Shown one piece after another: positions 14,362 to 58,965 of a stretch of 64,000 nt of DNA (position 1 is its first letter; every line of letters begins with the position of its first letter). The DNA comes from Pseudobdellovibrionaceae bacterium (GTDB taxonomy: Bacteria; Bdellovibrionota; Bdellovibrionia; Bdellovibrionales; UBA1609), in NCBI GenBank assembly GCA_018663505.1, contig JABJQG010000058.1, forward strand, positions 1-64,000, written 5' to 3'. Made by a program: the position numbers and the translations under genes. The notes below the pieces were generated by a model. It was not told where the DNA came from. It saw only the letters and a program-made list of their open reading frames with translations, and did no database searches.

Positions 14362-15467
14362 TGAAAGTTTTAATTACAGGAGCCAGTGGGTTTATTGGCA
14401 AAAACTTAAAAGTACATTTAACTGAGCTCAAAGACATTGAGGTTTTTACTTTTACACGTGAGCAATCGCTCTCGGATCTACCTGACCTCATCAATAATAT
14501 GGATTTTGTTTTTCACCTAGCTGGTGTTAACCGGCCAGAAACGGTAGATCAATTTAAAACAGGCAATATTGACCTCACCTTAGCTATCTGTGACGCTATT
14601 GAAGCCAGTGATAATAAAATTCCCATGATTTTTAGTTCGTCTATTCAGGCAACAAAAGATAACCCTTATGGCCACAGTAAGCTTGCAGCCGAGCAGGAGT
14701 TGTTAAAGTTCTCTGAGAAAAATGGAAGCCCTGTGTATATTTTTCGTTTGCCCAATGTTTTTGGTAAATGGTGTAAACCAAATTATAACTCTGTTGTAGC
14801 TACATTCTGTAACAACATGGTTAATGATATTCCCATAGAAATTCATGACAGATCCACCAAACTGAAACTGGTTTATATTGATGATGTGATTCGCCAGCTT
14901 ATCTCCGTTCTCCATGCTCCTAAGAATAAAGACGCTTATTGCCATATTGATCCGGTTTATGAAATTTCTCTGGGTAAATTAGCTGATAAAATTAGTTCTT
15001 ATAAAAATAGTAGAGATACCTTAATTACAGAAAAAGTGGGAGTTGGCATAGACCGCGCATTACATTCAACGTACTTAAGCTATATACAGCCTAATAACTT
15101 TTCGTATCCTTTAGTGAAGCATGGGGATCAAAGAGGTGTTTTTGTGGAAATGCTAAAAACAAAGGACTCTGGACAAATATCATTTTTTACAGCCCATCCA
15201 GGCATTACCCGTGGTGGGCATTATCATCATAGTAAAACAGAAAAGTTTCTGGTGATTAAGGGAGAAGCGTTATTTAAATTTAAAAATATTTTAAATAATG
15301 AATCTTACGAATTAAAAACCACTGGTAACGATCCGGAAATTGTAGAAACCGTTCCCGGCTGGACCCATGACATTACAAATACAGGAAATGAGGAAATGTT
15401 AGTTATGCTATGGGCTAACGAAATTTTTGACAAAGACCTTCCTGACACCTACGCATGTCCACTATAA
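14361..15467 (+). CDS. capF: UDP-2-acetamido-2,6-dideoxy-hexulose reductase/epimerase CapF
   Basis: CapF (WbjC/FnlB) acts second in UDP-L-FucNAc synthesis: 3-epimerisation and NADPH reduction of the 4-keto sugar from CapE, giving UDP-N-acetyl-L-talosamine. The 368 residues show an N-terminal SDR domain (GASGFIGKN, residues 7-15; the S-x(n)-YGHSK catalytic segment) and a C-terminal cupin domain from about residue 245 with metal-site histidines in GGHYHHSKTEKF. The two-domain SDR plus cupin layout is diagnostic. It is coupled to the transferase upstream by TAATG and precedes capG by 11 bp. Confidence 0.92.
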   Translation: MKVLITGASGFIGKNLKVHLTELKDIEVFTFTREQSLSDLPDLINNMDFVFHLAGVNRPETVDQFKTGNIDLTLAICDAIEASDNKIPMIFSSSIQATKDNPYGHSKLAAEQELLKFSEKNGSPVYIFRLPNVFGKWCKPNYNSVVATFCNNMVNDIPIEIHDRSTKLKLVYIDDVIRQLISVLHAPKNKDAYCHIDPVYEISLGKLADKISSYKNSRDTLITEKVGVGIDRALHSTYLSYIQPNNFSYPLVKHGDQRGVFVEMLKTKDSGQISFFTAHPGITRGGHYHHSKTEKFLVIKGEALFKFKNILNNESYELKTTGNDPEIVETVPGWTHDITNTGNEEMLVMLWANEIFDKDLPDTYACPL

Positions 15468-47467: not shown

Positions 47468-48721
47468 ATGGATACTCCACAACTCTCCGCTCAGCAAAAC
47501 CAAGCCCTGGAACTCATGCTTAAAGGTGAAAATATCTTTCTCACTGGTGAAGCTGGCTCTGGTAAAAGTTATGTCATTAGAGAGTTTATGAAGAAAAAAA
47601 ATAAAAAAGACTATCCAATTCTATCTAGTACCGGAATGTCAGCTGTACTCATTGGTGGACGGACCTTCCATAGCTTTTTTGGTCTAGGAATAATGGAAGG
47701 TGGATTGGAGAAAACTGTTCTGCGTGCCCTAAAAGATAAACGTGTGATTAAACGTTTACAAAAAGCTCATGGTATCATAATTGATGAAATTTCTATGCTT
47801 GACGGTACCACACTGGAAGCCGCTGAAATTATCACACAAAAAGCACGGGATTTTGAGCTACTGCCTTGGGGAGGCTTACAGATCATCGCAGTGGGTGATT
47901 TTTTACAACTACCCCCTATTAGCAAATCCTCAAGGAAAAAATGGGCTTTTCAACACCCTATTTGGAAATACTCTCGCTTACAAAATGTCATTCTAAATGA
48001 AAACCAAAGAACAAAAAATTCTGAATTTTTAGATATCCTAAGCACTGTACGTGAAGGAAAAACAAATCCTCCGGTTCAGAAGTTTCTTGATAGTAAAATC
48101 CCATCAACTGAAGATGCTATGGAAAATATGGAGGCCACATATCTCTATCCTCGACGCTTCCAAACAGATAAACATAATCAACAAAAGCTTAACGGAATAG
48201 ACTCTCCACTTATTACCTCTAAGTCCATCTATCTCGGACGAGATATCTTTATTCAAAAACTTAAAAAAGCAGCTCCTGTTCCTGAAGAAATTCACCTTAA
48301 AAAAGATGCTTATATTATGATACGTAAAAATGACCCAAAAGGAAGATGGGTCAATGGGTCTACTGGCATATTAAAAGAGATTCAAGATGGTGTTCTTGTG
48401 GTAGAGCTCCTCAATGGACGTGTGGCGGAAATAGAAAAAGCAACTTTTAGCATGCTTGATGCCGAAGGTAACGAAGTAGCCTCTGTTGTTAATTTCCCAG
48501 TAACTCTGGCATATGCAACCACGATCCATAAAGCACAAGGCATGACCATTGATCGTTTAGTTGTAAATCTTAAAAATCTTTGGGAGCCTGGGCAAGCCTA
48601 TGTTGCTCTTAGCCGTGTGAGAGATCCCAATCATCTTTTTATTCAAGACTGGACACCTGCCTCTATTAAAGCGGATCAACAAGTTGTAGATTTTTACAAT
48701 ACTATGAATGAGTTGGTTTAA
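47468..48721 (+). CDS. PIF1/RecD-like DNA helicase
   Basis: A 417-residue superfamily 1B helicase. Walker A GEAGSGKS, Walker B IIDEISML, GDFLQLPP (motif III), the ENQRT motif and the C-terminal VTLAYATTIHKAQGMT and YVALSRV segments are all present. PIF1-like enzymes unwind 5'-3' and resolve G-quadruplexes or forks. The ATG at 47468 is preferred because AAGG lies 8 nt upstream and MDTPQLSAQQNQAL matches the family start; an ATG at 47390 would add 26 residues. It converges on the GNAT gene across a repeat pair. Confidence 0.88.
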   Translation: MDTPQLSAQQNQALELMLKGENIFLTGEAGSGKSYVIREFMKKKNKKDYPILSSTGMSAVLIGGRTFHSFFGLGIMEGGLEKTVLRALKDKRVIKRLQKAHGIIIDEISMLDGTTLEAAEIITQKARDFELLPWGGLQIIAVGDFLQLPPISKSSRKKWAFQHPIWKYSRLQNVILNENQRTKNSEFLDILSTVREGKTNPPVQKFLDSKIPSTEDAMENMEATYLYPRRFQTDKHNQQKLNGIDSPLITSKSIYLGRDIFIQKLKKAAPVPEEIHLKKDAYIMIRKNDPKGRWVNGSTGILKEIQDGVLVVELLNGRVAEIEKATFSMLDAEGNEVASVVNFPVTLAYATTIHKAQGMTIDRLVVNLKNLWEPGQAYVALSRVRDPNHLFIQDWTPASIKADQQVVDFYNTMNELV

Positions 48722-48732
48722 AATTGTAGGTT

Positions 48733-48847
48733 TGTGAGTGGACAGCTTTGATTTGTGGATCTCCCATTGACACCTTTCCGTCCATGGGAAATCGGGCCTA
48801 TGGCGGCCCGAGCCCACCAATTCCCCCACGTCGTGTGGGGAAATCTA
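48733..48847 (-). repeat. Two-hairpin element, copy C
   Basis: Read on the minus strand: TAG, stem 1 arms ATTTCCCCACA and CGTGGGGGAAT around loop CGA (one T-G wobble), linker TGGTGGGC, stem 2 TCGGGCC/GGCCCGA around GCCATA, then CCCATGGACGGAAAGG and a tail ending in CACTCA. Plus-strand stem coordinates are 48820-48844 and 48792-48811. It faces copy D across 42 nt and lies between the convergent helicase and GNAT genes. Confidence 0.9.
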
Positions 48848-48889
48848 CTAAAAAAAAGATTCAGTTCTTCTCGGATATAAATTTATTTA

Positions 48890-48960
48890 TAGATCTAATG
48901 GCACGATGCCATTAGATTGCGGAGCTCGAGGCGGCAAGCCTCGATTGTCAGGATGCTCAG
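48890..48960 (+). repeat. Two-hairpin element, copy D
   Basis: TAG, stem 1 ATCTAATGGCA (48893-48903), loop CGA, TGCCATTAGAT (48907-48917), linker TGCGGAGC (48918-48925), stem 2 TCGAGGC/GCCTCGA (48926-48932/48938-48944) around GGCAA. Stem bases differ almost wholly from copies A-C yet pair perfectly. The loop and linker pattern are kept. The 3' tail found in A-C (CCCATGGA) is missing or strongly changed. Confidence 0.85.
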
Positions 48961-48982
48961 ATTTCTATTTGAGCCAAAAAAC

Positions 48983-49546
48983 TCACAAATACTTTATCAT
49001 TTCCACAGCTGTACAAACACAGGGCTTAACCTTACAGCCAGAACACAAGTAATCCACATGTGCCCAAAACAAAGGATGCACCTTAACCTCTGCAAACCCC
49101 ATTGCTTTTAAATACTGAGAAGAAGAGTTCCCCGGAGATTCTAGCCAACTATGTACTACCACAGCCTTAGTGTTCCGTTTCTTGAGCTCCTCAAGTGATT
49201 TTTCTGTAAGGGCTCTACCTACCCCTTTATTCTGATAAGCAGAATGAACAAACAAACTTTTAAAATAGGCCACCGATTCCACATCTGTAGACCATTTATT
49301 CATAGATAAAAATTTAGAATCAATATTTTCAGTGAGTTTTCCCGGCAACAAAGTAATGCGAATACCAACGATTTCTTCTTTTTGGTTTAAAGCCACAAAA
49401 GAAACCATACCCATACTATCTGTACTTAGTTTTAGCATTTTTCTAAAATCACTATCCACATAGTAATTCTGCCCGATAAATTTATCCGTAAACGCCTTTA
49501 ATTTATCCAAGGCAATTTCATTCATAGTGACAATTGTATAATTCAT
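48983..49546 (-). CDS. GNAT-family N-acetyltransferase with C-terminal Cys cluster
   Basis: A 187-residue acetyltransferase. The acetyl-CoA-binding motif A is VHSAYQNKGVGRALTEKSLEEL (Q/R-x2-G-x-G/A), with the preceding beta strand and the later SQYLKAMGFAEV typical of GNAT. The tail carries CSGCKVKPCVC, five positions of Cys in 11 residues that could bind a metal; this is unusual for GNAT. Substrate unknown. It is followed (on its 3' side) by the repeat pair C/D. Confidence 0.85.
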   Translation of the reverse strand: MNYTIVTMNEIALDKLKAFTDKFIGQNYYVDSDFRKMLKLSTDSMGMVSFVALNQKEEIVGIRITLLPGKLTENIDSKFLSMNKWSTDVESVAYFKSLFVHSAYQNKGVGRALTEKSLEELKKRNTKAVVVHSWLESPGNSSSQYLKAMGFAEVKVHPLFWAHVDYLCSGCKVKPCVCTAVEMIKYL

Positions 49547-58535: not shown

Positions 58536-58745
58536 TTAATTTTCGGCCGTGTAAAGATTACAGTACTCATATGGGACCAGGGTCAGTTTGCCATCAATAA
58601 ACTTGGCCTTAAACCCGTTGAGAAGCGCTGCTTTTTGCTTTAGCAAGGCTTTTCCCGAGGCATACAATCTTTTGTATTTTGAATGAGTTGATTTGAGTGT
58701 AGGTGGTTTGAAGCCTGGTATTCCAATTGACACCTTTCCTTCCAT
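58536..58745 (-). CDS. Small ORF beginning inside repeat copy A
   Basis: A 69-codon frame that starts at the ATG in the CCCATGGA motif of the repeat and is basic (many Lys; MEGKVSIGIPGFKPP). It has no recognised family. The ATG is conserved in copies B and C (ATGGATGG, ATGGACGG), but frames there differ or are cut short by neighbouring genes. It may be a remnant of a gene carried by the element or simply a chance frame. Confidence 0.25.
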   Translation of the reverse strand: MEGKVSIGIPGFKPPTLKSTHSKYKRLYASGKALLKQKAALLNGFKAKFIDGKLTLVPYEYCNLYTAEN

Positions 58746-58808
58746 GGGAGATCAGGGGCTAGCCGCCCCTGAAACCCGCAATTCTTCAACATCGTGTTGA
58801 AGAATCTA
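58690..58808 (-). repeat. Two-hairpin element, copy A
   Basis: Minus strand: TAG, stem 1 ATTCTTCAACA/TGTTGAAGAAT around CGA (plus-strand 58781-58805), linker TGCGGGTT, stem 2 TCAGGGGC/GCCCCTGA around GGCTA (58752-58772), then CTCCCATGGAAGGAAAGG and a tail with ACTCA. Compared with copy B almost every stem-1 C/G pair is changed to A/T with pairing intact. It faces copy B across 41 nt. Confidence 0.9.
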
Positions 58809-58849
58809 AAGGTAGTTAGTTTTCTTCAAGTCATTATGGATTTTTCTTT

Positions 58850-58965
58850 TAGATTCCCCCACACGACGTGGGGGAATTGGTGGGTTCGGGCCGACTTTAG
58901 GCCCGATCTCCCATGGATGGAAAGGAACCAATTGGAACACCAAAAGCTCAAAGCCACCCACTCAA
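58850..58965 (+). repeat. Two-hairpin element, copy B
   Basis: TAG, stem 1 ATTCCCCCACA/CGTGGGGGAAT around CGA (58853-58877, one A-C pair at the loop), linker TGGTGGGT, stem 2 TCGGGCC/GGCCCGA (58886-58892/58900-58906) around GACTTTA, then CTCCCATGGATGGAAAGG and a tail ending CACTCA. Closest to copy C, 10 kb away. It ends about 30 bp before the stop of the PilZ gene. Confidence 0.9.

Follow-up and report, generated by a model that had tools for sequence, protein, structure and literature searches.

This stretch of DNA, the 64,000 nt of which are referred to here as the window, raises the question of what the inverted pair of hairpin units C and D might be. What kind of element is it, is it the fold or the primary sequence that has been maintained, and what could have carried it to the place where it now lies?

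The doublet in the window and its repeat family

The element is about 270 nt in length (48722-48990), with outer limits given by the conserved tail end CACTCATAAACC/ACTCACAAA, and it fills the gap between two convergent open reading frames, one encoding a Pif1-like helicase that ends at 48721 and the other a GNAT acetyltransferase that ends at 48983. Direct reading of the sequence confirms the basic layout of an inverted pair of units in which, as the original prediction had it, C and D face each other across 42 nt, an AT-rich spacer at 48848-48889 with the TAG ends pointing inward. Each unit runs, again as predicted, from TAG through hairpin 1 with its CGA loop and an 8-nt G-rich linker to hairpin 2, beyond which there is a conserved tail, CTCCCATGGAYGGAAAG. 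Unit C (48761-48848, a covariance-model match of 94 bits) lies on the minus strand and is made up of the TAG tag (48845-48847), hairpin 1 (ATTTCCCCACA CGA CGTGGGGGAAT, 48820-48844), the linker TGGTGGGC (48812-48819), hairpin 2 (TCGGGCC GCCATA GGCCCGA, 48792-48811) and the tail TTTCCCATGGACGGAAAGG...CACTCACAAACC (48727-48791). Unit D (48889-48973, 78 bits) lies on the plus strand, with its TAG at 48890-48892, hairpin 1, also with the loop CGA, at 48893-48917, the linker TGCGGAGC at 48918-48925, hairpin 2 at 48926-48944 and a degenerate tail at 48945-48990, the ACTCA end of which overlaps the GNAT stop codon (48983-48985). This stop codon falls inside the conserved end of the tail, as if the end of the gene had been supplied by the element.

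The two units are more alike than was first thought. The claim that D has almost no stem bases in common with C is overstated, since the two agree at 5 of 11 positions of the stem-1 arm and at 5 of 7 in the stem-2 arm, and the pairing, described as perfect, is not quite so in unit C because of an A-C mismatch adjoining the loop and one T-G pair. The folding energies of C and D nonetheless lie 3.9 and 4.2 standard deviations, respectively, below those of dinucleotide shuffles, and the pair folded as DNA gives z = -6.0.

A model search for further copies, which the original prediction had proposed, was productive. The covariance model R1, built from 73 units of the window's own genome, returns 118 unit matches in that genome with E-values, which are rough for such models, down to 4e-26 (4 of the 118 are weak), and homologues are found across the order; BLAST with the 301-nt C/D region gives 50 genome matches. 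There are about 57 dispersed inverted pairs, nearly all units being in head-facing pairs, and such a pair is present in 54 of the loci fetched. The spacer ranges from 40 to 62 nt with a median of 43 in the first 38 doublets, mostly 40-47, and the remaining loci include a few that depart from this in either direction. TAG is at least 90% conserved and is preceded by A or T in most units. The stems fall into three types, named here alpha, beta and gamma, and the doublets are almost always heterodimers that include gamma. The four copies of the original prediction, A to D, are two such doublets, at 58721-58937 and 48761-48973; in the former, unit A (58721-58809, minus strand) has beta-type stems and unit B (58849-58937, plus strand) gamma-type stems, both being covariance-model matches.

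Units extend about 45-65 nt past hairpin 2, where CTCCCATGGAYGGAAAG is followed by a tail whose end lies near CACTCATAAACCCATA. In many copies the tails of the two partners are complementary to each other, so that a well-kept doublet takes the shape of a trunk, about 65 bp long, topped by four hairpins, with energies of about -150 to -188 kcal/mol. The trunk of A/B is kept, unlike that of C/D, which is decayed (-101 kcal/mol), and several copies either have decayed tails or are themselves interrupted by insertion sequences. An IS481-family insertion sequence (L032:54-1208, minus strand, with a 384-aa integrase) has entered one and the same position of the hairpin-2 loop in at least seven copies, with gamma hairpin 2 interrupted in L020, L025, L028, L032, L099, L104 and L106, and related insertion-sequence ends break hairpin 2 in L105, L108 and L109; assembly contigs end at these insertions. 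The families described as targeting REPs in PMC1525189 are IS3 and IS110, with IS481 going unmentioned. Elsewhere, the spacer of L096 (G000:C43, about 14621-14695) is expanded by a GAAA-type microsatellite, and L088 (about 1940-2060; G000:C4 near 5500) holds a single unit whose partner has kept its tail without either hairpin and is likely to be a deletion remnant.

How far is the fold maintained? In an alignment made without reference to structure, double-sided changes occur at 12 of the 19 stem pairs and 91.5% of cells pair. The covariation score is 0.582, compared with 0.208 after shuffling (none of 500 shuffles reaches 0.582) and at most 0.146 when partners are moved by 1-3 columns, although the independent events behind it are few because the stem types are few. 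Relatives from other genera contribute further stem types, and covariation is also seen across genomes in an alignment that leans towards the structure because it was fitted to it. The compensatory change in both stems that was originally proposed is thus borne out. The accompanying view that selection acts on the fold and not on the primary sequence is correct only in part, since the letters of the loop, linker and tail are conserved as well.

Distribution among relatives and Y1 transposase genes

R1 finds no match in the 46 further genomes of the family that were searched, all from other genera, and across the order it detects units in 7 of 141 genomes, including G082, G092, G101 and G117, which belong to other families, with head-facing pairs in G082. 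A second, order-wide covariance model (R2, from A2) raises this to 18 of 144 genomes, the window's own genome counted in. These counts are lower bounds, as the first-look filters of the genome search score only part of the candidates. Many of the relatives' units are 63-65 nt in length and consist of hairpin 1 and a few bases followed by CTCAYGGAYGGA, without hairpin 2. Since this simple form is common among relatives, the second hairpin appears to be an addition, and the two-hairpin unit would then be an enlargement of a simpler ancestral unit composed of hairpin 1 and the CTCAYGGAYGGA tail. Searches of phages, plasmids and viral contigs for the element gave nothing, and a strict pattern scan of an 84,980-species collection gave one match, in a Ferrovum bin, that the covariance model scored as chance. 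Against 4227 Rfam covariance models there was only a chance match below threshold, and a known RNA family was ruled out on the absence of any match above it.

In relatives the unit often adjoins Y1 (RAYT) genes of a type marked by the motif RPLS, mostly upstream and within a few hundred bases, so that the search for a Y1 transposase in carrier genomes, suggested in the original prediction, led to an association. A unit is present at 31 of 59 RPLS-type loci and at none of 18 loci with other Y1 genes (19 loci less L152, excluded as RPLS-type), a difference with a Fisher p of 2e-5 in which the loci are not independent, because paralogues within one genome are related. G028, from the window's own family, has the unit at 16 of 20 further RPLS-type loci, where the chance expectation is less than one locus in 20; G082 has it at 7 of 9, and thirteen other genomes together at 8 of 30. 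No unit was seen at roughly half of the RPLS-type RAYT loci that were examined. The link recurs in G028, G025, G117, G132 and G082, and in the last of these two RAYT groups that are only about 25% identical to each other carry near-identical units. In the RPLS-type RAYTs the HUH histidines are conserved and one tyrosine is almost invariant. As a separate observation, G028 (loci L242-L261, L221, L229 and L235) has 28 RPLS-type RAYT matches, most with their own unit upstream; its many transposase genes and the few dispersed copies found are the reverse of what is seen in the window's genome. An earlier impression that unit and Y1 gene are unconnected, gained when R1 was empty within the family even though Y1 genes are widespread there, was overturned by the order-level search and R2.

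The window's own genome has 10 Y1_Tnp matches, and the readable genes are mostly of MPRK type. No unit lies near the Y1 genes at the nine loci read, and a profile search for an RPLS-type RAYT in this genome returned only weak matches to Y1 genes that were already known. Several of its Y1 genes (L049-L056) are bounded by private inverted repeats, AAAAGGTACG.../AAAAGGTGCC..., that are unlike the element, and these genes look like TIR-flanked RAYTs. The resident Y1 genes were ruled out as mobilisers on account of both these repeats and the lack of a nearby unit at the nine loci. The assembly is 97% complete in 72 contigs, several of which end inside an element, so that an RPLS-type RAYT may sit in an assembly gap.

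Spread of the element and competing explanations

With these findings in hand, C/D is very probably a REP doublet of the REPIN type, a non-autonomous repeat. Because the units of relatives adjoin genes for single-strand-DNA transposases, it is taken as an enlarged version of a REP/REPIN rather than an element of a previously unknown kind. The position of the genes, together with the known biochemistry of TnpAREP (PMC8266576), suggests that a RAYT moves it. In such a scheme the doublet would be the replicating unit and would spread as single-stranded folded DNA that is cut and joined by the RAYT in trans, and the RAYT of the window's genome would have been lost, or would lie in an assembly gap, to leave an orphan family.

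What, then, of the possibility that the element is a structured RNA selected by the host, a bidirectional terminator or a protector of mRNA 3' ends, for which the RAYT link is merely historical? The copies are intergenic, and 41 of 45 have a gene 3' end on at least one side. When genes are called by a crude ORF method, 23 of 45 doublets are flanked by convergent genes and 4 of 45 by divergent ones. The corresponding background, taken from 364 kb of this genome, is 15-20% and 15-30%, respectively, such that convergent pairs are enriched. This placement would suit an RNA function, as would the great stability of the well-kept copies and the similar folding of both strands. Yet R1 draws a blank in the 46 other genomes of the family, so that this is not a host function conserved there; insertion sequences or decay of the tails have damaged several copies; and the units of relatives adjoin transposase genes, all of which makes this explanation rather improbable.

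A second possibility, that the element is a MITE of a DDE-type transposon whose paired tails are terminal inverted repeats for a conventional transposase, is very unlikely. It draws on the inverted terminal tails and their fairly conserved end CACTCATAAACCCATA, but among the 11 copies with definable ends no target-site duplication rises above the shuffled-partner control (4.18 versus 4.04 +/- 0.27), and relatives without long tails have nevertheless kept the hairpin unit beside Y1 genes. Finally, the idea that two hairpins came together by chance or through a local duplication had nothing counted in its favour, and it was ruled out for practical purposes by the 118 units and by the homologous units in further families of the order.

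For a REPIN-type doublet, the tails hold a further piece of information. They vary between copies, yet 11 of 38 tested copies pair best with their own partner within their class; the tail of unit B, for instance, pairs with that of unit A better than with that of any other copy of its class. The summed pairing energy of tails with their own partners also beats that of swapped partners, which match it in 0 of 20000 swaps for beta-gamma doublets and 42 of 20000 for alpha-gamma. The tracts that have changed together are long and diverge from the consensus. One tentative explanation, which we consider possible though not favoured, is that during copying of the folded single strand one arm serves as the template on which its partner is rewritten, a hairpin-templated arm conversion. 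If this is true, the matched arms would be a readable trace of REPIN replication rather than of selection on the fold, and they offer a route to testing how REPINs are copied.

Comparison with known REP systems

The BIMEs of E. coli are, beside the GTAG-tagged REP heterodimers, a natural case for comparison. In the original prediction the layout was likened to the BIME/REP pairs of RAYT systems, a likeness that is supported and to which the RAYT association in relatives can now be added, and it was also said that no known family matches. The latter stands only in part: published accounts of REP dimers (PMC3733652) and REPINs (PMC3116915) already include head-facing heterodimers whose stems vary, whose loops are short and whose spacer is conserved, at gene 3' ends, whereas the parts that appear new are a second hairpin, a long trunk and a 3' tag. 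A search of the open-access literature for REP repeats in connection with Bdellovibrio, a name that was a guess about the order, returned nothing relevant.

Among the systems in PMC3733652, the 'TIRYT' arrangement, where RAYT genes have unrelated TIRs, resembles several Y1 genes of the window's genome, the inverted repeats of which (GGTACG.../GGTGCC...) are distinct from the present element. The CGTC-tagged REPs of the same paper are alike, by description, in having a hairpin with an unpaired tag. They have no associated transposase, their stems are 8-9 bp, and the tag ends a short unit; here the tail, on its complementary strand, has the sequence TCCRTCC, which contains CGTC in only part of the copies. 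Closer are the GTAG-tagged REP tail-to-tail heterodimers (PMC3733652), which likewise have tags directed towards the spacer, partner stems that differ, a short loop and a conserved spacer, and which sit between unidirectional and convergent genes. The present units differ in that no unpaired GTAG is found at the 5' foot of the stem, TAG having a mixed first base before it, mostly A or T, and in the extra conserved 3' tag CTCAYGGAYGGA and the second hairpin.

The REPINs of Pseudomonas fluorescens SBW25 and others (PMC3116915) share inverted REP units with a short spacer, an extragenic location, compensatory changes, folding of the whole doublet and a RAYT gene near the units, which here applies to relatives. 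They differ in having a single short palindrome in place of a two-hairpin unit of about 90-125 nt; the present element also has an outer trunk of up to about 65 bp, and no cognate RAYT was found in its own genome. On the best reading this is a new family of REP/REPIN repeats in which a second hairpin has enlarged the unit, and its spread would be the work of a RAYT that this genome has since lost or that its assembly does not include. Covariance models trace the family across several families of a single bacterial order, and in relatives its cognate RAYT genes are recognised by position. It shows that a second hairpin and a long paired trunk can form part of a REP unit, and that a REP family can stand at more than 100 units in a genome where no cognate transposase is found.
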